Origin: a virus
Length of the DNA: 34,156 bases
IMG/VR virus record: IMGVR_UViG_3300046459_000191
Coordinates: 1-34,156 of that record
Strand: one strand, 5' to 3'
Within the stretch, counting starts at the first letter, position 1. Every line of letters starts with the position of its first letter. This document shows, in pieces, positions 3,399-34,136 of the stretch. Made by a program: the position numbers and the translations under genes. The notes below the pieces were generated by a model, which saw only the letters and a program-made list of their open reading frames with translations, had not been told where the DNA came from and ran no database searches.

Positions 3399-6300
3399 TA
3401 GACCCACCTTCCTGTGTTGATGGCCGAAGCCGTGGATTCCTCGCGCGCCGTCACTTCCGTGCGCACGATGTCGGTGATCTCGCGGTCCCCGACGTAGACG
3501 CGGACGTCGGCGTGAACCGTCGCTGTGCCTCCGCCTCGTCCCGCGCTCGCGCGCAGGGTGTCCCACTGGGATCCGGTGAAAACGGGTTCAGGCTTCCCGG
3601 TGCCGTTGGCGACGAGCGAGAGGCCCTCCGGGAGGTACCCTCCGTCGTCGTACCAGTGAGGCGAGCGGCTCAGCCACTTCGAGTAGGCGGCTGCGGGGCT
3701 GCCGTAGTCGGGACGGTTCTTGATGTAGCCGAGTCCCCACTTGATCTGAGTGGCGGGGTTCGACGACCAGTCAGCGCCCGCAGCAGCCATCTTGTTTGCG
3801 GGAAGCGCCTGCGGGATGCCGTAAGCGCCGGACGACGGATTCTTAGCGTTCCAGCGCCAGCCGCTTTCGCCCTGCCACAGCTTCTTCAGCGGGTTCCACT
3901 GGGAGTCGCCCCAGCCGAACTCGCCCAGCATCTGACGGGCTGCGGTCTGAGCCGCTCCAGTGCTTCCACCACTTCCGCCGCCGATCGACGGCTTGAAGCC
4001 GTAGACGTCGCGGAACATCGCGCTGTGCGCGCCACGAGCACGGGATCCGACGAGGACGCCGTCCCCGCCGCGCGACTCCACGTTGACGCCCGCGAGCGTG
4101 CCGGCCGTGTGGCCGACGCCTGCGTTGGTGACGCCGATCTGGAATGGAGCGTTGAGGTTGCGGACCCAGCCCGACGGGGCACGGCTACCGCTGAACGCAC
4201 CCGTTGCCCACCGTCGGTGCGGTTTCTCGCCGCGGATGACGGATTCGATGGCGCTCATGAGGCCGGAGCAGTCCCATGAGGGGTTGCCGTTGCCGCCCCA
4301 CTGATAGGGTTTGCCCGCCTGCGTCTTCGCCCAACTGAGGCCCGCAGCAACGTTTGCGCCTCCTCCGCCGAAGCTGAAGAGACCGGTCACCGCATTCTTC
4401 ATGTCCGTCAGCATCGTCAGCGGCATCTGTGCCACCGACTTAGCCCACGGATTCGTCAGGATCGGCGCCATGGCGTCAGTGAAAACGCCCTTGGCCGACT
4501 GGAAGATCTTGCCCGGGTTCAGGTAGTCAAACGCACCGCCAAGGAACTTACCGGCGTCGCTTGCCTTGTCCTTCATCCAGCCGACGATGCCGCCGTCCGC
4601 GAACGCCGGCATGCCGCTGGAGATCGCACGGTGAACGCCACTGATGCCGCCTGAACGGGCGGCAGCGTTCCACGCGTTGATCCGGTCCGCGCCAACTGCG
4701 CGCGTCCACTCCGGCCGCATGACTGCCTCGCCGCCACCGACGGCGATGACGCGATCGTCACGGCCCGGGGAATACCCGGACATGATGCCGCCAGTGTGGA
4801 AGCCCTTCAGCGACATGGGCTTTAGCTTGTCGGCTCCGGTGACCTTCGCGACCTGGTTCCAGAGAGGAACGATGCCGTTGTTGTAGACGTGGTCGATGAC
4901 GAAGCGGACCGGCTTCTTTGTGATTTCCTGGAGCTTGTCCCAGTGCTTCTTGATGTCGTCCTTGGACTTCTTGAACGCCTCTGCGACGAGGTCGACGCCT
5001 TGCTTGATTCTCTCAAACGGCGGCTTGATCGCCTTGTCCCACAGCCACTTAGCCTTGTCGCCGATCCACCCGAAGACAGGCTTGATAGCCTTGTCCCAAA
5101 GCCATTTGGCGACCTTTCCAAGAGCGTCGAACTCCTTCTTCGCTTCGCCGAAGGCCGGCTTGATGCCCTTCTCCCAGACCCACTTAGCCTTGTCGCCGAT
5201 CCATCCGAAGACAGGCTTGAGGATCTTGTCCCACAGCCACTTAGCCGCGTCGCCGATCGCGCGGAACGCAGGGCCGATCGCCTTCTCCCACAGCCACGCT
5301 CCGATCTTGCCGAGTGCCTTGAACGCCAGGTAGGCGGGCAGGAGGAAGAGCGTCACTACTAGCGTGAAGAGGAACTGAGCAGCCTCACCAATGAACTTGA
5401 AGGCTGGCTTCAGCGCGTTGTTCCACAGCCACATCGCGACGTCGCCGATGGCCTTCATCGCGGTCCAGATGGCGGAGAACACCGGCTTCAGGACGTTGTC
5501 CCACACGAACATGGCCGCAAACTTGATCGCGTCCCAGACGGCAATCACTGCCGTGCGGAACCATGCCCAGTGATTCCATGCGTACATGATTCCGGCTGCC
5601 AGCAGTACGAGCGCTGCAATGATGATCGTGATGATCGCGACGACAGGGTTCATCTCGAAGGCGAGATTGGATGCGACGATTGCCGCCGTCCACCCCTGCG
5701 TGATCAGCGTCGCCAAAACAACGCCCGCACGATAGGCGACCATGATGACGCCGAATGCTGCGGTTGCCAGGGTCACGGCGCGCGTTGCCGCCCACATCAG
5801 CCAGAGGGCTTGAATTGCCTCCGGGCAGTTCGTCGCGATCCAGGCGATACCGTCCAGGAGCGGGCCAAGAACCTCGAACATCGTCTGCGAGAGCGGCGCG
5901 ATTGCCTTCGACAGGTCAAGCGCGGAACTCAGGACCCTGCCGATGAAATCTGCGAGTCCAGGCGCCGTTTCCTTGACGTATGCGAGGAACTTCTCAAACT
6001 GCGGGGAGCCCTTCAGGCTCGTCCCCCACTTCGCGAATCGCGCGGTGATGCGGTCCGACCTCTGTGCGATGCCGTCCATATGCGGGAAGAATGCGTCGAT
6101 GATACCGGCAATGCCCTTGATGACGTTGCCGAACGCCACGCCGAAGCCTTCAACGGCTGGCTGTACGCTGTCCTTCAGGTCGGCCTTGAAGCCCTTCCAG
6201 AACGGCGTCTTCAGCTCCGCCGACGCCTTGTCATACAACGTCTTCACGCCGGCCGCAGCACCGAGGACGAGCGGCGTCAGGCCAGGCAACGACGCCTTCG

Positions 6301-9578: not shown

Positions 9579-9947
9579 TTACGCGGCCCGGAGGCTCACG
9601 GTGTAGCTGGCGCCACGTCGATGGACGGATTCGTTCGCCCACGGCTGTCGCGACGGGCCGGAGTCACAGCGGACGGACCGAATCACGGCGCCGTTGACGG
9701 GACCGCTCAGGAAGACGAGGGCATCTCGCACGCTGTTAGCTAGGGTGCGGGCCTCGTCAGCCGTTGCGGCGAATACGTCGACTGCGACGCGAGGATGGAG
9801 CGAGAATCGCTCGTCTCCCCCACCGATGCGCTCCACGCGGATCACGGGGAGCTGCTCCGCCAGGTCCGCGGGAGTCTCGGAGCAGCCGAAGACGTCGAAG
9901 GTCTGCTCTGCCCACGGGGCTAGTACCGCTTCGATGTCAGCCGCCAC
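9579..9947 (-). CDS. Tail terminator / tail completion protein
   Basis: 122 residues from a GTG start that overlaps the upstream gene by 11 nt. The layout (helix, then LPVIRVERIGGGDERFSLHPRVAVDVFA, then a helix with EARTLANSVRDALV) resembles tail terminators of the lambda gpU and HK97 gp10-neighbour type, small alpha/beta proteins that cap the tail tube and join it to the head. The location just before the tube gene supports this. The family cannot be pinned down by eye. Confidence 0.75.
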   Translation of the reverse strand: MAADIEAVLAPWAEQTFDVFGCSETPADLAEQLPVIRVERIGGGDERFSLHPRVAVDVFAATADEARTLANSVRDALVFLSGPVNGAVIRSVRCDSGPSRQPWANESVHRRGASYTVSLRAA

Positions 9948-10299
9948 TGTGTCCCGCCTTCGCAGCGTCTATCGCCTTCTGCAGCGGGGCGTACCGCGGG
10001 ACGTGTCCGTCGCCGTGCTCCACGCGCCAGGCATGCGGAGCGCGGTTGACGAGTCGGGCACTTGCGCGCCGGCGGGGCTTGCCACGGAAGGGAACGTTCT
10101 TGTAGATCGGCAGCACTTCGAAGGAGGCCCGATACAGGCCCGGGTGCCGGTCCTCTTCAGGGTCACCCGTCGGAGAGACTGCCTGCGCCTCCGCCATCAT
10201 CTTCGTTGCGGCCGACACACACGCGGGCTGCAGCCACGGGCGGGACAGCATGGCGCCGATGCCGGAGTACCGGCCGGTGTACTTCGAGCGGTACGCCAT
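9937..10299 (-). CDS. Neck / HK97 gp10-like protein
   Basis: 120 residues. The ATG at 10299 overlaps the upstream stop as ATGA and has AGGAGG about 10 nt before it, which decides the start over an upstream in-frame ATG at 10383. The protein is basic (Arg/Lys-rich) with VPFRGKPRRRASARLVNRAPHAW broken by aromatic residues, as seen in minor neck proteins between head connectors and tail terminator. It probably helps join head and tail. The assignment is mainly positional. Confidence 0.65.
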   Translation of the reverse strand: MAYRSKYTGRYSGIGAMLSRPWLQPACVSAATKMMAEAQAVSPTGDPEEDRHPGLYRASFEVLPIYKNVPFRGKPRRRASARLVNRAPHAWRVEHGDGHVPRYAPLQKAIDAAKAGHSGG

Positions 10300-11041: not shown

Positions 11042-11252
11042 CGCCTGCCTTACGTCGCGCTGGGGTGCGCTTGGCGACGGTCTTCTTCGCCGGAGCGGGC
11101 TCCGTAAGTCGCTTCACGGTGGGCGGCTCGCTCCACGCCTTCGGATTGGTGATGAGCACCTGTGCCCAGTCGGGCACGACGTCGTCAGGGCCGAACGCGT
11201 GGGTCTGACCCTTGTCGTCCTTCACGTGGACGTAGGTACGTAGCTTGGCCAC
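11013..11252 (-). CDS. Hypothetical protein between capsid and connector genes
   Basis: 79 residues from a GTG. The N-terminal half is a short beta-rich unit (LRTYVHVKDDKGQTHAFGPDD) with a Trp-containing segment (PDWAQVLITNPKAW). The C-terminal third is Lys/Arg/Pro/Ala-rich and probably disordered. Proteins of this size and look often sit right after the capsid gene in actinophages and have no settled function. The basic tail might bind DNA or capsid, but nothing here proves it. Confidence 0.65.
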   Translation of the reverse strand: MAKLRTYVHVKDDKGQTHAFGPDDVVPDWAQVLITNPKAWSEPPTVKRLTEPAPAKKTVAKRTPARRKAGGGDAAVHDG

Positions 11253-15660: not shown

Positions 15661-17367
15661 TTAGAAAGCGACCAAGCGGCCAGACTTCTTCTTACGCTTC
15701 GTGATTCCTGCAGCAACGGCGTCAGCGCGGCACTCGTAGGCGAGTACGGCGGACATGGCGGCGTCGATCTTCTTCGGACTCTTGGCGTGCTCCTTACCGA
15801 TGCCGATGTGGTTTCGGCCCATGGGGCGGCGCTTGGCGTTCAGTACGTGGCGAGAGAGCGTGGCTCCCAGCGCGGAAAACGAGGCATCTTCGCCTTTCTC
15901 GGTGCCGGCGAAGCTGAGCGCCTTGTCGTCGGTCGCCTCCACGAAGCGATTCAGCGCCATCTCCATAGCCGTTGGGCGGTTGGTCCACCACTCCAGCGGG
16001 CGGGCCTGTGTGGCGCGCACGGAGAGGTTCTCGCCGAAGTCCGCGGTCCAGCGGTCCACGTAGTCCTGCCAGTGCGGCGGGTCGCAGTAGAAGCCGCAGA
16101 CCTCGTAGCGATCGAAGGCGCGGGAGACCGCAGCGTCCACGGCTTCGCGGTCCACCTGCCAGCCTTCGCCTTCGGGGCCTTCAGGCTTCTCCCAGACACC
16201 GAGCAACTGAAGGTGTCCGTCGGAGACGCGGCAGGCTGTGAGCGCCGTAGCGTCGTCGCGGATGGATCCGTCGAAGCCCAGCGTGACGAGTTCGCCGGCC
16301 GCTATCTCTTCGGCTCGTCGGCACAGCTCCCACGCGTCGGGGTTCATCCATGCGTCGGAGGAGGACGTCCGGGAGTTGAGGAAGTAGCGCTTGCCGTCGG
16401 CGGAGTCGTTACGGAGGTCGTAGAAGTCGTCAACGAGGGTGTCAATGTCCATCCACTCCATGGCGTCGCCGTAGGCGTCCATGAGAGCGGCGCGGAGTTC
16501 ATCCTCGTTCTTGAGATCCTTGCAAACGCCGTAACGGTGGTCGTACATCAACCTGGCACGGCCACGCTTTTTACGACCCTCACGGATCGCTTCGGCCTCT
16601 TCATAGGTGCGCTCTGCGACGCTGTCTTGCCCGGGGGCGAACATGGTCGTCGTCTCCAGGTACCACGTGCCCGCGCCACGCTTCCTCTTGCGGAGGTTAC
16701 GGGTCACCGTCGCGTACATGCGGCGCAGCTCAGGAGTGTTGTAGAGGTGGGTTTCGTCGAAACAAACCCACGTCTCTTTACCGCCGTCCTTCGAGGAGGA
16801 CGATGCGGTTGACGGCGTGATCTCTCCGCCGTCGGGAAGGTTGATCTTCGTCAGGCCCGGGTCCACGCCCGGGACGCTGCTGAGTAGCGACGCCTCGTCG
16901 GTCAGGTTGAAGTAGATGGTGTCGTAGACGTTGCCGGTCTGGCCTTCCTCCGTCGCCATGATGCGGAGGTAGGGGACGCGGACCGGGCGGCCCATGGGCT
17001 CGCCAGCCTCGTAGACGTACTCGAAGCCCAGCCCCCACGGGTCGCGGTAGACCTCACCGCCTTCAGCCCAGCCGTTGAAGCGGGCTGGCCCGAAGGCTTC
17101 GAAGAGGCCAATACGCGCGCCCAGCCCGGACTTGTCGCAGCCCTTTGGGCGGCTGAAGAACGCGGAGTCGTAGAGGAGTTTGCCCTCGTCGTCATCGACC
17201 GCGTAGCAGTCCACAACGAAGCCGGTGTATTCGTCTCGATGCCGTACAGGCTCACCCTGGACGTCGCCAGGGCCGTGTACGACGAAGTACTCCATCCATG
17301 CGACCGCCATCCACCCGAGAGAGCGGGAGCGGTCGTGACCGGGGGCGCGCACAAGAGCGCGCGGCAT
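15661..17367 (-). CDS. Terminase large subunit
   Basis: 568 residues, near the family norm, with AGGAG 6 nt before the ATG. It is the ATPase and nuclease that pumps and cuts DNA. The Walker A-like loop is SRPKGCDKSG at 72-81, where D78 stands where a Gly is usual. Walker B is TWVCFDETHLY with D204-E205. The coupling motif is in YLETTTMFAPGQ near 236-247. The nuclease half has VTLGFDGSIRDDATALTA and VCGFYCDPPHW with the expected acidic residues. The gene is coupled to the small subunit (9-nt gap) and precedes the portal by 12 nt. Confidence 0.93.
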   Translation of the reverse strand: MPRALVRAPGHDRSRSLGWMAVAWMEYFVVHGPGDVQGEPVRHRDEYTGFVVDCYAVDDDEGKLLYDSAFFSRPKGCDKSGLGARIGLFEAFGPARFNGWAEGGEVYRDPWGLGFEYVYEAGEPMGRPVRVPYLRIMATEEGQTGNVYDTIYFNLTDEASLLSSVPGVDPGLTKINLPDGGEITPSTASSSSKDGGKETWVCFDETHLYNTPELRRMYATVTRNLRKRKRGAGTWYLETTTMFAPGQDSVAERTYEEAEAIREGRKKRGRARLMYDHRYGVCKDLKNEDELRAALMDAYGDAMEWMDIDTLVDDFYDLRNDSADGKRYFLNSRTSSSDAWMNPDAWELCRRAEEIAAGELVTLGFDGSIRDDATALTACRVSDGHLQLLGVWEKPEGPEGEGWQVDREAVDAAVSRAFDRYEVCGFYCDPPHWQDYVDRWTADFGENLSVRATQARPLEWWTNRPTAMEMALNRFVEATDDKALSFAGTEKGEDASFSALGATLSRHVLNAKRRPMGRNHIGIGKEHAKSPKKIDAAMSAVLAYECRADAVAAGITKRKKKSGRLVAF

Positions 17368-17865: not shown

Positions 17866-18486
17866 CTACTGCGTCAGCTTGGTCACCACCGCGGAGATAT
17901 CCGCGAGGATCGACGGGGAAGAGCCATGTCGGCGTCCCGTCATAGTGATGTACCGGCCGGTGGAATAGATCTCTACGGCCGTACCCTCGGGGCGTCGGAT
18001 GCGCCGTCCATGTCGGACGTCAGCGCGGCCCCAGATGTGCAGGCCATCGCCGGACGGGGACACCTCTACGTAGGTGGCGCCCGCGTCGCGGAGAATGGCT
18101 GCGGCCCACGGGGCAAGACGCCCTGTGAGCAGGTTCAAGCAGTGGTCCAGGTCCAGACAGACCACGTCATCGACGTCGGAGAGGACGAAGCCCAGACCGA
18201 CGCCGGCCACGGCTTCCGTGGCGTTCTTGTAGGTGCTCCACGTGCGCGCGTTCGTCGACGAGGCAGCCATGCCGGTTGTCGTCAACGGTCGCTTGTCCGC
18301 GGCTCGTCGGACCCACCTGTCGCAGGTCGTCAGTTCTACGGGGAAGACGCGCTTCTTATCCGCGCGGTGCGAAGCCACACGGCAACGGGTGGAGCAGAAG
18401 CGTGCTCGGTGCGAGTGTCGCGCTCCAAGATGCTCCGGGCACCACTCGCAGGTTCGTGTGTTCATGGGCTCCATCTTACGGGGCAT
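17866..18486 (-). CDS. Zinc-finger protein with prim-pol (AEP)-like domain
   Basis: 206 residues. The N-terminus has a four-Cys cluster (C13, C16, C31, C35) like a zinc finger. Then comes the pattern of the bifunctional primase-polymerase N-terminal domain: GVGLGFVLSDVDDVVCLDLD with D112 and D114, YVEVSPSGDGLHIWG with H150, and AVEIYSTGRYITMTG with E172. These match the metal-binding DxD, the nucleotide-binding SxH-like motif and the third acidic motif of archaeo-eukaryotic-type primases. There is no helicase domain, so it is a stand-alone unit. ATG codons at 18474 and 18465 are alternative starts, the last with GGAG very close. The role may be primer synthesis or a regulatory remnant. Confidence 0.72.
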   Translation of the reverse strand: MPRKMEPMNTRTCEWCPEHLGARHSHRARFCSTRCRVASHRADKKRVFPVELTTCDRWVRRAADKRPLTTTGMAASSTNARTWSTYKNATEAVAGVGLGFVLSDVDDVVCLDLDHCLNLLTGRLAPWAAAILRDAGATYVEVSPSGDGLHIWGRADVRHGRRIRRPEGTAVEIYSTGRYITMTGRRHGSSPSILADISAVVTKLTQ

Positions 18487-22710: not shown

Positions 22711-22813
22711 CAGTCTGGCCAAAAATCCAAACTAGACCCCTATTTTCATTTCTCTCTAACGCGCGTAGTAAGAAGTGAAAATAAGGATCTAGTCTGTCCT
22801 TTTGGCCAATCTG
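22711..22813. other. Candidate attP: long imperfect inverted repeat next to integrase
   Basis: The arms 22717-22753 and 22771-22807 match at 30 of 37 positions when one is reversed and complemented; similarity extends to 22711 and 22813. The 17-bp centre contains ACGCGCGT. It lies in an AT-rich island 160 bp past the 3' end of the serine integrase gene. Serine integrase attP sites are imperfect palindromes in non-coding DNA near int. The arms are longer than the roughly 50-bp minimal attP, so the true core is probably the inner part around 22762. Confidence 0.6.
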
Positions 22814-27466: not shown

Positions 27467-28207
27467 TCACACGCCCACGGGGCGACGGGCCTTGACACTC
27501 TGGCACTCCCGGAGGTCGACGAGCACGCTGTTCGCGCCCTGGCCCGGGTAGCTCGTGATCTTTCCTTGCGCCTTCCAGCCGCGGACCGTCTCCGGGGCGA
27601 CGTCCAGGGCGTCAGCAGCCTCCCCGTAGGTCACGAGGACGCGCTCCTCCGGCTCTTCTGCGACCGGTGTGGGGTCTTCCTGCTCCGGCTCCGGGATAGA
27701 CGCTCCAGCGGGCTCCTGCGGCTCCTGTGCGGGCGTCTTGCGCTCGTCGACCGCCGGCAGCTCTGGCGTCTCCAGGTCCGACGGAGGGTCGATGTGGAGG
27801 ACGTGGGCCGCAACGAGCGGCGGAACGGCCGACACAACGACGATGACCCACAGCGTTGGGCCGAACACGTCGGCGGTGATGACGTGTTCCGTGATCTGCG
27901 CGGCCGTTGCCATGAGCAACGCTACGAGAGCGCCTCCCGTTGCGTTGCGAGAACGACGTTTGGCCTCCGCCTCCCGCGGTGTTCCGGCCGCAACGCGAGC
28001 CGCCTCCTTCTGCGCCTTCGCAACACTCGCGCCGATCGCGGCGTAGAGACTCATCACGGCCGGCATGAGCCACGCAACGCGGGCGTCCCAGCCGGCCATC
28101 TCTGCCAACGCGTACTCCCCCGGGGCGGAGAGCGCCAGGGCGGCGTAGAGAACGGCAGACTGTCCGTACCTGCGTGCCAATCTGACGTGCGCGGGGGTCT
28201 TTGGCAT
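27467..28207 (-). CDS. DUF2637-like membrane protein fused to an HTH domain
   Basis: 246 residues. Hydrophobic segments are at about 15-38, 46-62, 90-108 and 117-140 (for example TLWVIVVVSAVPPLVAAHVL), like the SpdB/DUF2637 membrane proteins of actinobacterial plasmids and integrative elements. A Pro/Glu-rich linker (about 145-185) leads to a C-terminal MerR/excisionase-like HTH (VTYGEAADALDVAPETVRGW, then KITSYPG). This would place a DNA-binding head on the membrane. A role in partitioning, spread or control is possible; none is shown. Confidence 0.72.
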   Translation of the reverse strand: MPKTPAHVRLARRYGQSAVLYAALALSAPGEYALAEMAGWDARVAWLMPAVMSLYAAIGASVAKAQKEAARVAAGTPREAEAKRRSRNATGGALVALLMATAAQITEHVITADVFGPTLWVIVVVSAVPPLVAAHVLHIDPPSDLETPELPAVDERKTPAQEPQEPAGASIPEPEQEDPTPVAEEPEERVLVTYGEAADALDVAPETVRGWKAQGKITSYPGQGANSVLVDLRECQSVKARRPVGV

Positions 28208-28543: not shown

Positions 28544-28578
28544 TTGGTTCTCCTTCGTCAGTCCCTTGCGTTGCCCCA

Positions 28579-28610
28579 ACTATCGCACACTTATGTCGCG
28601 CAACACAACC
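28579..28610 (-). promoter_or_regulatory. Repeated promoter/operator element, copy 1
   Basis: TTGTGT at 28603-28608, an 18-nt spacer (TGCGCGACATAAGTGTGC) and GATAGT at 28579-28584. Spacer and boxes recur at 29.46 and 32.2 kb. The ACA-N4-TGT dyad inside the spacer suggests a bound regulator. Confidence 0.65.
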
Positions 28611-28804
28611 CCTGCCGGCGAACCTCCGTGAATCGCTTCACGGAGCACGGCCACGAGCGACCCGCCCGGCAGCGTCACGACGTGCCCGCCGCGGACCCTC
28701 GTCCAGCTGTGCCCGCGCTTCACGGCCTGGCGGAGGAAGTGGCGCGGTGCCACGTCGTCGACGACCGCGGAGGCTCCGCTCTCGAACGTCACGCGGTAGC
28801 GCAC
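28580..28804 (-). CDS. Small protein whose tail codes through the repeat cassette
   Basis: About 74 residues from a GTG at 28804 that overlaps the end of the previous gene, with a weak AGGTG before it. Core: RYRVTFESGASAVVDDVAP, HFLRQAVKRGHSW, GGHVVTLPGG. The last 24 residues or so are translated from the hairpin and promoter element (LREAIHGG, VVLRDISVR). This may be real read-through or a gene that lost its earlier stop. No family known. Confidence 0.55.
   Translation of the reverse strand: MRYRVTFESGASAVVDDVAPRHFLRQAVKRGHSWTRVRGGHVVTLPGGSLVAVLREAIHGGSPAGVVLRDISVR
28624..28645 (-). repeat. GCGA-loop hairpin, copy 1
   Basis: Stem CTCCGTGAA with TTCACGGAG, 9 of 9 pairs, loop GCGA on the minus strand. 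It has no T run after it. Confidence 0.7.
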
Positions 28805-29421
28805 TGCGACACCTGCGCCCTCGTCACGGTGATGAAGCGGTCCGCGGGGATTACCGCATCCCCTCCGCCCACAAAGCTGATGTGCACGTGGTTGCGAAGC
28901 GCCGTGGGCCAGGTGCTGTGTGTCGCCGTCCGCTCGTGTCCGTGGAGGGTGAAGACGTCGCCGGCGCGGATCTCGCGGGCGGTGACGGTCAGGGTGACGT
29001 AGGCGGGGTCGGCGCACATGATGACGCCCTTCGCGAGAGCCTTACGGCTGGTCGCGACGACTACGGGGCGCTCTTCGTCGACGACAGGAGCGACCTCCGC
29101 GGTGGGCTCCTCCGGGGCGACATCCGCGCGCTGCGAGACACACCAGTGGTGGCCGCACTCGCCGCCGATCTCCTTTGCGTGACCCTCGTCGCACAGGTCG
29201 AAGGTGCCGGGGGCGTACCACTCGTCACCCATGCGACCGCTACTGACGCCTACCTCGTCGGCGAAGTCGATGGAGCCGCGGAGCCAGCTCAGCGCTGCAT
29301 CCTCGTCGCCCAGGTGCTTCCCCATGTCGGTGCCGTTCAGAGTCACTCGGGTGTAGCCGAAGTCGGCGCCACGAGCCTTGACGACCTTCAGCTTGCGGCC
29401 CTTGTAGGTCTCGGTCTTCAT
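28789..29421 (-). CDS. Hypothetical two-domain early protein
   Basis: 210 residues with AAGGAG 6 nt before the ATG. N-terminal half: MKTETYKGRKLKVVKARG and DFGYTRVTLNGTDMG, then a possible metal cluster LCDEGH...GGECGHHWC. A Glu/Pro/Val-rich linker follows at about 100-120. C-terminal half: beta-rich VTLTVTAREIRAGDVFTLHG and RNHVHISFVGG. No family recognised. It is the first gene of the second cassette unit and is coupled to the 74-residue gene. Confidence 0.72.
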   Translation of the reverse strand: MKTETYKGRKLKVVKARGADFGYTRVTLNGTDMGKHLGDEDAALSWLRGSIDFADEVGVSSGRMGDEWYAPGTFDLCDEGHAKEIGGECGHHWCVSQRADVAPEEPTAEVAPVVDEERPVVVATSRKALAKGVIMCADPAYVTLTVTAREIRAGDVFTLHGHERTATHSTWPTALRNHVHISFVGGGDAVIPADRFITVTRAQVSQCATA

Positions 29422-29455
29422 GGTCTCTCCTTCGTCAGTCCCTTGCGATGCACTG

Positions 29456-29487
29456 ACTATCGCACAGTTCTGTCGCGCAACACAACC
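29456..29487 (-). promoter_or_regulatory. Repeated promoter/operator element, copy 2
   Basis: TTGTGT at 29480-29485, 18-nt spacer (TGCGCGACAGAACTGTGC), GATAGT at 29456-29461. Flanking bases down to the ribosome site also match copy 1 (GCAAGGGACTGACGAAGGAG). Confidence 0.65.
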
Positions 29488-29502
29488 TCTGTCGACACAT
29501 CA

Positions 29503-29520
29503 GCGTGAATCGCTTTACGC
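29503..29520 (-). repeat. GCGA-loop hairpin, copy 2
   Basis: GCGTAAA with TTCACGC around GCGA on the minus strand, one A-C mismatch. The stop codon of the HNH gene lies inside it. Confidence 0.6.
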
Positions 29521-30072
29521 AGCTATCCCGGCGCGGACGGATGACCACGCGCGTCCAGTCCGAATCTGGCTTACGAGAGACGTCGACACCCCGAACACTG
29601 CCGCGATGTCCTTGTTGGCCATCCCCTTGGCTATGAGATCTCGTATCGAGAGAACCTCCACCGCTGTCAACTTTGCTGCGGGGTTGCGCTCTCCCTGGTT
29701 ACTCGTCCCATGCTCCACACGGTGACGCTGGTTCTCCTTCGCAGTGACCCACCGAAGGTTGTCCGCATGGTTGTCCAGGTGGTTCCCGTTCAGGTGACCC
29801 ACTTCGTGATCGTCCGACGGGGCGGCGCCGTGGAATGCCTGGCATACGAGCCGGTGAATGTACGCGTACTTGGTGGGGGTGAGACCTTCAGTACCTGGTA
29901 TCGGTTCGCCATTGGTCCGACGCGTCCGGTTGGTCAAGGACACCATGTGTCGCCCTTGCCGGCCTGACTTCTTCGGCACTAGCACCGTCCCGCACTTCCC
30001 CATGACCTGCCCGTCGCTGCTCACCGCGTATCCGGGGAATCCGTCAACGTTCCGCCACTCAACGTCGGCCAT
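29515..30072 (-). CDS. NUMOD4/HNH homing-type endonuclease
   Basis: 185 residues from the ATG at 30072, which overlaps the upstream stop (TGATG). Residues 4-50 match NUMOD4 (EWRNVDGFPGYAVSSDGQV). Residues 70-118 match HNH_3 (HRLVCQAF, HEVGHLNGNHLDNHADNLRWV). The C-terminus (133-175) is a small HTH: KLTAVEVLSIRDLIAKGMA and VFGVSTSLVSQIRTG. These proteins cut DNA and spread themselves as selfish genes. It sits between two early genes and ends in the repeat hairpin, which suggests insertion at a unit boundary. Confidence 0.9.
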   Translation of the reverse strand: MADVEWRNVDGFPGYAVSSDGQVMGKCGTVLVPKKSGRQGRHMVSLTNRTRRTNGEPIPGTEGLTPTKYAYIHRLVCQAFHGAAPSDDHEVGHLNGNHLDNHADNLRWVTAKENQRHRVEHGTSNQGERNPAAKLTAVEVLSIRDLIAKGMANKDIAAVFGVSTSLVSQIRTGRAWSSVRAGIAA

Positions 30073-30893
30073 CAGACGCGCTCCCCCAGCGAGAATCCGG
30101 TACCTGACCCAACGCACGTCTGAAGGACGATGTCCGCCTTACCGAAGTCGGGGATCGCTCCTCCCTGCCGGTTGACGGTCAGGTGTCCGTAGATCCTGTA
30201 GGTGCCAGCAAGCGGGCCGTGAATGACTCGCACTAGGCGCCTGACTGGCACTCTGGCAAGCCAGCTGTAACCCATGTAGTTGTGACCCGCGAGGATCCGG
30301 CCGGCGTACATCGTCAGCGCCCCGGCGTCGATGCACTCCTGAGCGTGCCCAGTGCAGTCGCGGTAGAAGGAGATCCGGATGTCCGCCGGCGGCTTTGCGA
30401 TCGGGCGGCGCTTCGTCGGTGTCGTCGACGGGGTGGCGATGTGCTCCACCGTCAGCGCCTTGCGCTCCCCGTGCCGGCTCGTGTTCGTCGACGAGCGGGG
30501 CTCCGGGGTCGGGTAGTAGGGCTCGATGCCCTCCGACGTCCGGCTGAAGTACGGTGCCGGCGCCATGTCCTCCCCCGCACTGTGCGGCTGCGCGAGAACG
30601 GCCGCCAGGGCAAGCGCGGTTGCGGCGCCGACGGTGACAGCTGCAGCGCGGAACGGGGTACGGGAGGGGCGGCCAGTGTGGGCCAGGTGCTCCACGCCTC
30701 CTCCGAACTCCCGCGCAAAGCGGAAGCCGTCCCGGACAGTCAACTCCGACAACCGTCGCTCCGCCTCGTCGCCGATCAGCCACTCCGCGCCGATGACTTC
30801 CTTCTCCGGCGTGAAGCGGTAGGTCTCGAAGTGCACCCTGGCTCCGTCGCGGGTGGCGCGGACGCGGGTGCCGTCGCTCAGCTTGTAGATCAT
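30072..30893 (-). CDS. Single-pass membrane protein with a sortase-like domain
   Basis: 273 residues from the ATG at 30893 with GGAG upstream. Residues 1-80 are soluble (IYKLSDGTRVRATRDG, EWLIGDEAERRLSELTVRDG). Residues 82-101 form one membrane helix (AAAVTVGAATALALAAVLA). After a Pro/Ser/Thr-rich stretch, residues 170-273 contain AGHNYMGYSWL with H204, a beta-rich middle (YRIYGHLTVNRQGG), VLQTCVG with C260, and R272. The spacing H to C (56) and C to R (12), with TC before a Gly-rich turn, is what sortases have. The domain would face outward. The call is a motif-level inference; it could be another beta-barrel protein. Confidence 0.55.
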   Translation of the reverse strand: MIYKLSDGTRVRATRDGARVHFETYRFTPEKEVIGAEWLIGDEAERRLSELTVRDGFRFAREFGGGVEHLAHTGRPSRTPFRAAAVTVGAATALALAAVLAQPHSAGEDMAPAPYFSRTSEGIEPYYPTPEPRSSTNTSRHGERKALTVEHIATPSTTPTKRRPIAKPPADIRISFYRDCTGHAQECIDAGALTMYAGRILAGHNYMGYSWLARVPVRRLVRVIHGPLAGTYRIYGHLTVNRQGGAIPDFGKADIVLQTCVGSGTGFSLGERV

Positions 30894-30895
30894 CG

Positions 30896-31048
30896 TCACT
30901 TCTCCTCTTCCCTCGTCGGCGCGGGTCCGCCGGCCTTGCGCATGTCCGTGTGGAGCTGGCTGACGGCCGACCGGCGGTTCGTCGTGGCCGTGTCGTGGAA
31001 GCGGTCGAACGCTGCCTGTATGGCGGCGTCTCGGGACGAGTAGGTCAT
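30896..31048 (-). CDS. Small helical early protein
   Basis: 50 residues from the ATG at 31048, which overlaps the upstream stop (ATGA). Helical and charged (RDAAIQAAFDRFHDTATTNRRSAVSQ) with a basic-acidic end (TREEEK). It starts MTY like its upstream neighbour. Ends 2 nt before the next gene, so it is tightly coupled. No family known. Confidence 0.62.
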   Translation of the reverse strand: MTYSSRDAAIQAAFDRFHDTATTNRRSAVSQLHTDMRKAGGPAPTREEEK

Positions 31049-31311
31049 GACGTGGCCTCCGTGCGGGCTGCGGTGCAAATGGCTTCGAGCGCTTCCCGGT
31101 GCGTGCCCATGGCCTCTTCGCGTGTGTCGTCAGGGTGGGTGGTGTGGTCGACGAGGAAGCGGCCGAACTTGCGCCCCTCCGCCGTCTGCTCCCGCGAGTC
31201 GTCAAAGACCACGGTGCTGTACCGGCGAGGCTGGAGCTTCACCGTCGACACGGTGAGCTGGAGTTCGCCCTCACGGACCGGCGTCTGACGGACAACGATG
31301 GGATACGTCAT
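31045..31311 (-). CDS. Hypothetical early protein
   Basis: 88 residues from the ATG at 31311, which overlaps the stop of the gene before (ATGA), with GAGGAGG close by. The first half is beta-rich (PIVVRQTPVREGELQLTVST, STVVFDDSREQ), the second half is helical with His/Thr (FLVDHTTHPDDTREEAM, EALEAICTAARTE). No family recognised. Confidence 0.65.
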   Translation of the reverse strand: MTYPIVVRQTPVREGELQLTVSTVKLQPRRYSTVVFDDSREQTAEGRKFGRFLVDHTTHPDDTREEAMGTHREALEAICTAARTEATS

Positions 31312-31535
31312 GCTGCCTCCTCCTCGGTCTGGGAGATCGCGGACGAGAGCGCCTCTTCGAAGAAAATCGCTATCTGCTCGCCGTGGATGAGGTACTCCGC
31401 CACACGGTCGGTACCGATGTGCGGGTAGTTCTCCACCATCCTGCCCGCACGGGCGCGGGCCACGTCGACGGAGATCTCCGGGAATGCCTTGGTCAGTTGG
31501 GCTGCCGCCCGTCGGATCTTCAGTGCCTTCAGCAT
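31308..31535 (-). CDS. Hypothetical helical early protein
   Basis: 75 residues with AGGGAGAG before the ATG. Entirely helical: LKALKIRRAAAQLTKAFPEI, VARARAGRMVENYPHIG, AEYLIHGEQIAIFFEEAL. Four-gene coupling with its downstream neighbours (31311, 31048, 30893). No family recognised. Confidence 0.66.
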   Translation of the reverse strand: MLKALKIRRAAAQLTKAFPEISVDVARARAGRMVENYPHIGTDRVAEYLIHGEQIAIFFEEALSSAISQTEEEAA

Positions 31536-31544
31536 CGTCTCTCC

Positions 31545-31757
31545 CTAGAGCCGGATCACTTCGACGTCGTCGCCGCGGAAGTAAGTCATGATCAGCGGGT
31601 GGCCGTTGGGCCAGTCCCGTAAGTTCGTTTGGACCCGTAGAACACTCGTGGAGGTCACCCAAACGTCGACCACGCGAGCGAGCGGGACACGGTTGCCGTT
31701 CAGGAGGCCGACGAGCCAGTCTCCGGGGAGGATGTCGGGGAAGCTGGGGATGTCCAT
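31545..31757 (-). CDS. Hypothetical early protein with SH3-like pattern
   Basis: 70 residues from the ATG at 31757 with AGGAGG before it. Beta-rich: DILPGDWLVGLLNGNRV, LARVVDVWVTSTSVLRVQ, FRGDDVEVIRL, in the layout of a small barrel. It follows the tRNA-like element. No known family. Confidence 0.66.
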   Translation of the reverse strand: MDIPSFPDILPGDWLVGLLNGNRVPLARVVDVWVTSTSVLRVQTNLRDWPNGHPLIMTYFRGDDVEVIRL

Positions 31758-31784
31758 GCCGCCTCCTGCGGATTGTGCTTCGAG

Positions 31785-31866
31785 AGCCCCGCCGCGGATT
31801 CGAACCGCGTGCTCGTCGTCCGGCTGGGGGCCGGCGGTGCGTTGACGAGCCGCCAAGATGCGGGGC
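31785..31866 (-). ncRNA. tRNA-like element in the early region
   Basis: 82 nt between two genes. Acceptor GCCCCGC (31860-31866) with GCGGGGC (31786-31792) pairs 7 of 7, and the T arm CGCGG-TTCGAAT-CCGCG is perfect, discriminator T. The middle does not give a normal anticodon loop. It forms a 7-bp stem GCTCGTC with GACGAGC and an inner CCGGC/GCCGG hairpin with loop CCCCA. This could be a decayed tRNA or a tRNA-like structure. Confidence 0.5.
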
Positions 31867-31872
31867 GGGCTA

Positions 31873-32142
31873 TCAGGGGGTGTGCTTGCCGTCGTGGCCG
31901 GTGGGGCTCACGCAGTACATGTAGGCGAGCGATCCGCCACCGAGGACGATGTCTTGGGGGCCACACTCGGCAGGCTTCCAGGCCGCTTCGGAGCCGTGCC
32001 ATCCGACGGGGGTACCGACGATCCACACAGTTCCGTCGGTCATGGTCAGGGAGTGGACGCCGCGCGCGGTGCGGGCGTTGGAGCTGTCGGCGTCGATGAC
32101 CCGGAACTTCAGACCCGACTCATGAGTGACGGTGGTCTTCAT
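31873..32142 (-). CDS. Hypothetical early protein, cassette-driven
   Basis: 89 residues from the ATG at 32142, with AGGAGGAGG before it. Beta-rich: KTTVTHESGLKFRVIDAD, HSLTMTDGTVWIVGTPVG, then GGGSLAYMYCVSPTGHDG. It lies under promoter copy 3 and above the tRNA-like element, which may be in the same transcript. No family recognised. Confidence 0.67.
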   Translation of the reverse strand: MKTTVTHESGLKFRVIDADSSNARTARGVHSLTMTDGTVWIVGTPVGWHGSEAAWKPAECGPQDIVLGGGSLAYMYCVSPTGHDGKHTP

Positions 32143-32188
32143 AGCTCCTCCTCCTGCCGGACCCTCCGTGGGTCCCTGGCGTGGCTCC

Positions 32189-32220
32189 ATAGTTGCACAG
32201 TTATGTCGCGCAACACAACC
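32189..32220 (-). promoter_or_regulatory. Repeated promoter/operator element, copy 3
   Basis: TTGTGT at 32213-32218, 18-nt spacer (TGCGCGACATAACTGTGC) and AACTAT at 32189-32194, where the -10 box differs from the other two copies. Confidence 0.6.
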
Positions 32221-32225
32221 CAAAA

Positions 32226-32264
32226 GAGGGGACCCTCCGTAAATCGCTTCACGGAGGTCCCCTC
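32226..32264 (-). terminator. Strong terminator containing GCGA-loop hairpin, copy 3
   Basis: The repeated hairpin (32235-32256) is extended by GAGGGGAC with GTCCCCTC, giving a long stem, and on the minus strand is followed by TTTT. It ends the transcript of the 93-residue gene. This copy has clear terminator form. Confidence 0.82.
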
Positions 32265-33157: not shown

Positions 33158-33179
33158 CTCCGTGAATCGCTTTACGAAG
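33158..33179 (-). repeat. GCGA-loop hairpin, copy 4
   Basis: CTTCGTAAA with TTCACGGAG around GCGA, one A-C mismatch and one T-G pair, directly after the stop of the 47-residue gene. No promoter element follows this copy. Confidence 0.6.
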
Positions 33180-33353: not shown

Positions 33354-34136
33354 TTACGCAGCGACCCGGTACCTGTAGGCCGTGGCCACGTTGCGGGCGC
33401 TCTTCACGCCCTGCTGGCGAAGCCCCCTGAGTGCTTCACACTGCTTCCGCCGGCTGATGTTCAGGTCGTCGCTGACGTCCTCGTCCGGGCGCTTGGTCAT
33501 TCCGATGCCGTGGAAGGCGCGGAGTGCGTAGGACTGACGCTGCGGAATGGTGCGCAGGAGGTAGTGGGCCAGGTCCCGGCGCTCCGCGGCGTCAGTGAAG
33601 TCAGACGAGGCGTCAGGGATGGTGTCTCCCAGTGCCGCCCCGTGGTTGTCGTCCGTGAGCGGCGCCTCCAGGGAGTCGGGCTGCGCGAGGGCTTCACAGG
33701 CACTCACAAATGCTTCACGGGACATCCGTCGCTTTGTGTCGGGGTCCGTGGATACGCTGGTCCAGGCGTCTTCGACATTGCCGCCCGCCTCCCACAGTGC
33801 GTGGCGAACGCGGATCACCTTCGTCGGGTCGACGCTGAAGGCATTCGACATCCGGACCCACTCCTCCGCAACGGCGCGGCGGACGGCCCGGTACGCAAAC
33901 GAGCTGAGAGAGGCTGCGTCCGCTCCTGTCGTGTAGTCACGCACGTGCTGCAGCAGCACGATTCGCGCTTCCTGGAGGAGATCCTCCACGTCGTCCCCCT
34001 GTGCGGCCGGCGCTGCGGAGCGGATGACGCTCCGGAGCATCGGCTCGTAGGCGGAGATGATGTCCCACATGGCCAGCTCGTCCCCGCCCTGCGCGGCGAT
34101 GATCTGCTGGTCGGTGACGGTGGTGTGCTGCGACAT
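33354..34136 (-). CDS. Sigma-70-like factor
   Basis: 260 residues with GAGGGAG before the ATG. Residues 19-97 look like sigma region 2: LAMWDIISAYEPMLRSVIRS, DDVEDLLQEARIVLLQHVRDY and SLSSFAYRAVRRAVAEEW. A middle stretch (100-185) is less typical. Residues 186-245 look like region 4: RDLAHYLLRTIPQRQSYAL and DDLNISRRKQCEALRGLR, with a recognisable HTH. It probably directs host RNA polymerase to phage promoters. The repeated element 1-5 kb downstream is a natural target to test. Some phages also have sigma-like proteins with other roles. Confidence 0.8.
   Translation of the reverse strand: MSQHTTVTDQQIIAAQGGDELAMWDIISAYEPMLRSVIRSAAPAAQGDDVEDLLQEARIVLLQHVRDYTTGADAASLSSFAYRAVRRAVAEEWVRMSNAFSVDPTKVIRVRHALWEAGGNVEDAWTSVSTDPDTKRRMSREAFVSACEALAQPDSLEAPLTDDNHGAALGDTIPDASSDFTDAAERRDLAHYLLRTIPQRQSYALRAFHGIGMTKRPDEDVSDDLNISRRKQCEALRGLRQQGVKSARNVATAYRYRVAA

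Follow-up and report, generated by a model that had tools for sequence, protein, structure and literature searches.

Putative early promoters with two phased operator-like palindromes in phiC31-related temperate Streptomyces phages

The window, that is, the whole 34,156-nucleotide stretch of viral record IMGVR_UViG_3300046459_000191, represents part of a temperate phiC31-type Streptomyces phage. The genes that can be recognised in it, for the sigma factor, early functions, the serine integrase, tRNAs, terminase and structural proteins, are encoded on the minus strand. Three related elements were found in it, and we consider with moderate confidence that each is an early promoter specific to the phage and equipped with two operators. 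The phage's own sigma factor would read the core promoter, an SprT-like protein would bind a palindrome that contains the -35 box (P2), and a member of the SAMYPH_32 family would bind a second palindrome farther upstream (P1).

The first-pass annotation had described three elements with a TTGTGT box, a nearly invariant spacer and a -10-like box, and all three were located at the places given there, on the minus strand (TTGTGT-N18-GATAGT at 28608-28579 and 29485-29456, copies 1 and 2; TTGTGT-N18-AACTAT at 32218-32189, copy 3). Scanning the window with TGCGCGACATAASTGTGC at up to three mismatches returned 3 matches against a chance expectation of 0.04, and 0 of 100 shuffled windows reached 3; similarly, TTGTGTTGCGCGACANAANTGTGC with up to three mismatches occurred exactly three times. 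On the minus strand, every element was arranged in the order P1, 18-19 nt, TTGTGT, 18 nt, -10 box, leader with ribosome-binding site, and gene (Table 1). Copies 1 and 2 are both inside one 98-bp duplication (D1; 84% identical, ribosome-binding site included), so that only two independent elements exist within the window, the flanks of copy 3 being distinct from those of the other two. The earlier view that each copy serves one short transcription unit held only in part: behind copy 3 come about seven tightly spaced minus-strand ORFs. An Rfam search detected tRNAs only, comparison of the window DNA with deposited phages found no similarity, and a distant search with one copy as the query gave chance matches only. 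An exact-pattern scan of viral contigs returned no match, because the bases differ from phage to phage.

Table 1. Positions of promoter elements, P1 cores and associated genes in the window
Feature	Position	Strand	Sequence or remark
P1 core, copy 1	28627..28642	-	CGTGAAGCGATTCACG; complementary arms CTC/GAG extend the core; homologous cores in relatives
P2, copy 1	28591..28608	-	TTGTGTTGCGCGACATAA; -35 box is the left half
Extended -10 GTGTGC and -10 GATAGT, copy 1	28579..28590	-	
Conserved leader with ribosome-binding site, copy 1	28550..28570	-	CGCAAGGGACTGACGAAGGAG
First gene behind copy 1, 82 aa	28295..28543	-	
P1 core, copy 2	29504..29519	-	CGTAAAGCGATTCACG
P2, copy 2	29468..29485	-	TTGTGTTGCGCGACAGAA
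Extended -10 CTGTGC and -10 GATAGT, copy 2	29456..29467	-	
First gene behind copy 2, 210 aa	28789..29421	-	
P1 core, copy 3, within a long stable hairpin (z = -5.4)	32238..32253	-	CGTGAAGCGATTTACG
P2, copy 3	32201..32218	-	TTGTGTTGCGCGACATAA
Extended -10 CTGTGC and -10 AACTAT, copy 3	32189..32200	-	
Leader, copy 3	32162..32181	-	CGCCAGGGACCCACGGAGGG; orthologous to the leader behind L004:12122
First gene behind copy 3, 89 aa	31873..32142	-	
P1 core without P2 promoter, between sigma-side genes	33161..33176	-	
P1 core in the structural region	11103..11118	-	Same element and flanks in relative G008 (L038:4199)
Phage sigma factor, RpoD-like regions 2-4	33354..34136	-	Proposed reader of -35/extended -10

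Relatives were reached via the sigma protein and comprised Samy (OR263580), Streptomyces fulvorobeus and S. microflavus prophages, and a series of IMG/VR phages. The cassette was present in 23 related phages, with Samy, two genomes from GTDB Streptomyces and many IMG/VR phages among its carriers, which upheld the proposal that a promoter with an operator is repeated before several early units. In Samy, cassettes are located at L005:20561, 22763, 24700 and 25588. Some cassettes occupied orthologous places: L004:12122 is the ortholog of window copy 3, and L004:13244 is the counterpart of copies 1 and 2, with matching leaders and start regions. The pooled set, from which near-duplicates of earlier phages were left out, held 63 cassettes in 24 phages, and cassettes within one phage, or between close phages, are not independent of one another. 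With frozen patterns, 12 cassettes were detected in 6 of 9 held-out prophage loci and 0 in 20 randomisations; a third phage set, scanned with the patterns unchanged, added 23 further cassettes.

As read from the DNA, box and spacer together are an 18-bp palindrome, P2, with the -35 box as its left half and the extended -10 directly behind it. The ACA-N4-TGT dyad previously suggested within the spacer did not hold up: it occurred in 18 of the 63 cassettes and was missing from 14 of the 24 phages, whereas the true dyad includes TTGTGT, and CTGTG is accounted for by the extended -10. P2 read TTGTGTCGGCCGACACAA in four phages and TTGTGTTGCGCAACACAA, TTATGTCGACCGACATAA, TTGTGGCGTACGCCATAA or TTGTGTTGAGCAACCCAA in others. 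These changes were symmetric, with 13 both-side changes compared with 5.6 in shuffles (0 of 500 shuffles reached 13), and the signal was lost once the partner position was slid. TTGTG was retained as the left half in nearly all promoters while the right half drifted, a constancy that fits a double role as the -35 box. In Samy and G011, the left half of P2 loses one base and one is gained past the right half, so the distance from -35 to -10 stays at 18.

The sequences of the relatives thus present P2 as a site conserved in palindrome and spacing while its bases change. Conservation of the spacer in relatives had been set beforehand as a test, and the elements passed it with a modification: palindrome and spacing were conserved, but the bases were not. 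The suggestion that the spacer is kept since something besides sigma probably reads it was also supported. Could recent duplication and shared descent account for the conserved spacer with no operator involved? The duplication holding copies 1 and 2 would allow it. However, the flanks of copy 3 are independent, relatives whose sigma factors are 45-64% identical nevertheless keep the palindrome and spacing with bases changed on both sides, and symmetric changes in such divergent relatives argue against descent alone; we regard this explanation as having next to no likelihood.

The hairpin reported before each copy turned out to be a second repeated palindrome, an operator-like site by its sequence, which also stands without a promoter at 33161 and 11103. 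In plus-strand reading, P1 is CGYNAGTCGACTNRCG in most phages and CGTRAATCGCTTYACG in the window phage. Each genome carries 5-13 copies, either promoter-linked or free-standing, and 116 P1 sites were counted in 13 phages, so that each genome repeats a single site in many of its intergenic regions. Relative to transcription, P1 was oriented alike in 5 of 5 cases in the window and in mixed orientation in Samy; most P1 sites are near-symmetric. Hairpins do serve as early terminators in phiC31, and P1 might be a mere terminator hairpin of the upstream operon: complementarity between its flanks was more frequent than between shuffled ones (z 8.3), and the RNA at copy 3 folded clearly better than shuffles (z -5.4). 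Copy 3 was, however, the only one of the five window copies to do so clearly, and P1 of copy 2 and P1 at 33161 folded no better than shuffles. Within a phage, the bases of the core are kept more strictly than pairing alone would require, the asymmetric core is found in both orientations in Samy, and a terminator has no need of helical phasing to P2. A terminator is therefore improbable, and we favour P1 as an operator.

Of the 63 cassettes (24 phages), 59 have P1 and P2 separated by a gap of either 7-8 or 16-19 bp, two classes one helical turn apart, and both classes occur in nine phages. Taking one cassette per phage, the phasing was strong (R 0.83, n 24, Rayleigh p ~6e-8). This rule was first seen in 13 phages and was kept in the two later sets: the 12 cassettes of the held-out prophages showed gaps of 8, 16, 17 and 18 only, and 22 of the 23 cassettes of the third set conformed. 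The P1 centres fall near -52.5 and -62.5 with a 10-bp periodicity. The two sites vary independently, which makes two different readers likely: G009 and G332 have a common P2 and different P1, and G372 combines the P1 of the window phage with another P2. A point against the two-operator reading is that some P2 promoters have no P1 (G009, L017:11835 and 14512). P1 and P2 are probably read by two phage-encoded proteins, since the hosts, where known, are Streptomyces. A host factor reading P2 is unlikely, because P2 differs among phages of one host genus.

The core promoter consists of TTGTGT, 17-18 nt, TGN and [C/G/A]AtagT. The features of sigma70 extended -10 promoters (TGN plus xAxxxT, 17-18 nt from -35) are present in the window copies; in the pooled set, TGN and the A and T at -11 and -7 were demanded by the scan pattern and so are no independent evidence. 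The pattern left base -12 free, and C, G or A was found there, with T in 0 of 63 cassettes. The sigma factor of the window aligns with RpoD regions 2 to 4 and could thus read both the extended -10 and the -35. Phage sigma factors carry Arg opposite Q437 of Escherichia coli sigma70 (invariant column R86) and mostly Ala opposite T440, a probable equivalence taken from an ungapped HMMER alignment; in a MAFFT alternative, E. coli region 2.4 aligned to the phage sigma with a gap at the tryptophans. The substitutions Q437H and T440I at these two residues are suppressors of a -12 T-to-C change (PMC2613000). From the Arg at the Q437 position and the lack of T at -12, we infer that the phage sigma is the reader of the core promoter.

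Next, the protein families present in most phages, 28 in number, were compared with P2 variation. The SprT-like family (SAMYPH_31) had the top partial correlation (0.39, p 0.002). Two adjacent columns, 186 and 185, located in its C-terminal CxC...CxxC ribbon, ranked 4 and 5 of 1674 for P2 position 9, the central base. The residue matched the centre base as W with T (4/4), R/K with G or A (16/16) and Q with C (5) or G (2), a match found after all 1674 columns had been scanned. G009 represents the Trp type, Samy the Arg type, and L112 and G004 the Gln type. Phages read after the rule was written agreed with it (R/K with G/A; Q with C), a weak test since none was T-centred. The window itself does not carry the SprT-like gene. 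IMGVR_UViG_3300047321_000083 (L112, 29.8 kb), a second contig of this phage that shares 6084 bases with the window at 100% identity, carries it at 4001-4624; there the protein has Gln-Ile (x2 = Ile), where Gln-Met/Val was expected. L112 also has a fourth P2, TTGTGTTGCGCGACATAT, with P1 upstream, before this apparently leaderless gene. P2 before the SprT-like gene is weak or absent in G009, G332, G318 and G197.

The best candidate for the P2 reader is thus this SprT-like zinc-ribbon protein, which in the window phage would be autoregulated through its own P2. Its HExxH site is HEAAH in the window phage and others and HDAAH, HQAAH or HHAAH in many; the Pfam SprT-like match was below the cut-off, and the predicted model (pLDDT 88.6) had a weak fold match to SPRTN 6mdw (probability 0.82, E 0.4). 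In structure searches, neither the SprT-like nor the SAMYPH_32 model strongly matched any known fold. We suggest tentatively, at somewhat less than even chances, that an often catalytically degenerate SprT-like metalloprotease family acts as an autoregulated early-promoter regulator that reads P2 via its zinc ribbon by a residue-base code (W:T, R/K:G or A, Q:C) and works jointly with another set of operators, located one or two helical turns upstream. If so, this would be an unexpected transcription-factor role for a protease family. Separately, a whole-genome search found the gene split in G411 (L091/L095) and with an internal stop in G410 (L092), and intact in relatives; a -10-like box lies 6-10 nt before its ATG in nearly all phages, in line with a leaderless transcript.

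The same architecture may have other binders, with SAMYPH_32 or another conserved protein on P2 and something else on P1. SAMYPH_32, which the Samy authors named an immunity repressor and found expressed under all conditions, followed P2 in its distances (Mantel r 0.51, p 0.002, 12 phages; partial 0.24, p 0.032, 19 phages), and immediately upstream of SAMYPH_66 there are two P2 sites in tandem. SAMYPH_32 had, however, the most top-ranked columns for P1 (8), whereas the SprT-like family and its linked neighbour SAMYPH_29, which also tracks P2, had the most for P2 (9 each). Moreover, G009 and G332, with their common P2, have SprT-like proteins 67% identical but SAMYPH_32 homologues only 48% identical. 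We hold this alternative to be possible but doubtful and retain the SprT-like protein for P2; the column ranking tentatively suggests the adjacent SAMYPH_32 family, a putative immunity repressor, as the P1 reader.

Three further proteins were rejected as readers: the sigma factor and SAMYPH_86 had no positive partial correlation with P2, and SAMYPH_66 had a partial r of 0.12. SAMYPH_86 is the family of the 246-residue protein at 27467-28207, which had been called a repressor; the designation was not borne out, as its Samy member matches a DUF2637 membrane model and its variation did not follow P2 (partial r -0.13). This protein occurs in all relatives and has a weak C-terminal MerR/excisionase-like HTH.

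A tandem pair of P2 sites (L005 near 17077-17123, with equivalents in relatives) is spaced 29 bp apart with CCGCAGGTSRG between the sites. The pair lies ~900 bp upstream of sigma and upstream of a DUF7169 gene, has no clear -10 behind it, and is conserved upstream of the sigma operon in relatives having that region. It is possibly a further control region, or an origin or replication-linked site.

How might such a promoter work? With the phage's own sigma70-type factor reading the core promoter, a P2-bound dimer would cover about -36 to -19, a stretch that takes in the -35 box together with the greater part of the spacer, and would have to compete with sigma because it covers the -35, thus acting as a repressor. 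Another phage protein would bind P1, centred at about -52 or -62 on the same helix face, and reinforce control; at 8 or 18 bp upstream, it could cooperate with the P2 protein or loop between sites, and free-standing intergenic P1 copies could act as stoperator- or CIR-like sites. From palindromes, spacing rule, conservation and symmetric P2 change, all observed in the genomes, we infer protein binding with repression as its probable effect. Repression is the simplest reading, and activation through P1 would be the main alternative: P1 would then sit at a class I position, P2 would compensate for a poor -35, or both. The P1 centres and their periodicity are indeed the geometry of upstream activators, and the -10 is non-canonical. 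Conversely, P2 overlaps the -35, its left half is held while its right half drifts, as expected if sigma reads the left half, and many P1 copies have no promoter at all. We consider activation unlikely, though less so than a terminator, and prefer repression.

Phages with multiple operators of their own and with repeated early promoters have been described before, namely phiC31, R4 and the mycobacteriophages of clusters A and K. The present cassette, a contiguous palindrome containing the -35 with a phased second palindrome, matches none of these in sequence or arrangement, and no description of these operators for phiC31-related temperate Streptomyces phages was found in the papers searched. 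For phiC31 (Lomovskayavirus), transcription was compared by way of its sequence. The early gene order is similar, from sigma-like gp12 to integrase, promoter-like repeats occur between genes, and a repeated palindrome (CIR) is scattered through the genome. However, its promoter repeat GGGTTGCCGACTYCCTTACGG and palindrome CCTACTCACGTGAGTAGG are both unlike P1 and P2, and its palindromes are at no fixed distance from its promoter repeats. P2 was not found in phiC31 at up to two mismatches, the SprT-like family had no homologue there, and profile comparison of the SAMYPH_32 family with the phiC31 c repressor gave no detectable similarity (probability 1.2%).

The stoperators of cluster A mycobacteriophages and Streptomyces phage R4 resemble P1 in being many intergenic copies of a phage-specific site that diverges between phages. 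Those of the L5 type are 13 bp long and asymmetric, and the repressor that binds them is known (PMC6550527), whereas P1 is a palindrome of at least 16 bp, coupled to a second palindrome at promoters, with a putative binder. In cluster K, the start-associated sequence (SAS), GGGATAGGAGCCC, is asymmetric, 13 bp long and located where translation starts, the ESAS comprises two 17-bp inverted repeats with a variable spacer, both are upstream of a gene subset, and the inverted-repeat consensus differs between subclusters (PMC3203893). These too are repeated elements upstream of some genes, partly with inverted repeats, but P2 is contiguous, inside the promoter and at a fixed distance from the -10. 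Neither GGGATAGGAGCCC next to the start codon nor split 17-bp inverted repeats were present in the window elements. Finally, ordinary extended -10 sigma70 promoters share TTG..., 17-18 nt, TGN, A at -11 and T at -7 with the cassette; here, T is never found at -12 and the -35 forms one half of an operator that is palindromic.

These data provide a testable regulatory map for a group of phiC31-related temperate Streptomyces phages. As the operators change in sequence while the geometry is fixed, they offer a natural specificity matrix for immunity and for orthogonal Streptomyces promoters.

Two other features were observed. A second promoter-like class without P2 (KTSACA, 17 nt, CAYAAC) precedes the sigma and recombination directionality factor genes (L005:5198-5241 and 17912-17955; L004 near 9934-9975; L035 near 14600). 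In the window, a 48-nt AT-rich inverted repeat (77%) at 22711-22813, near the integrase and tRNA genes, is a possible terminator or attachment region.
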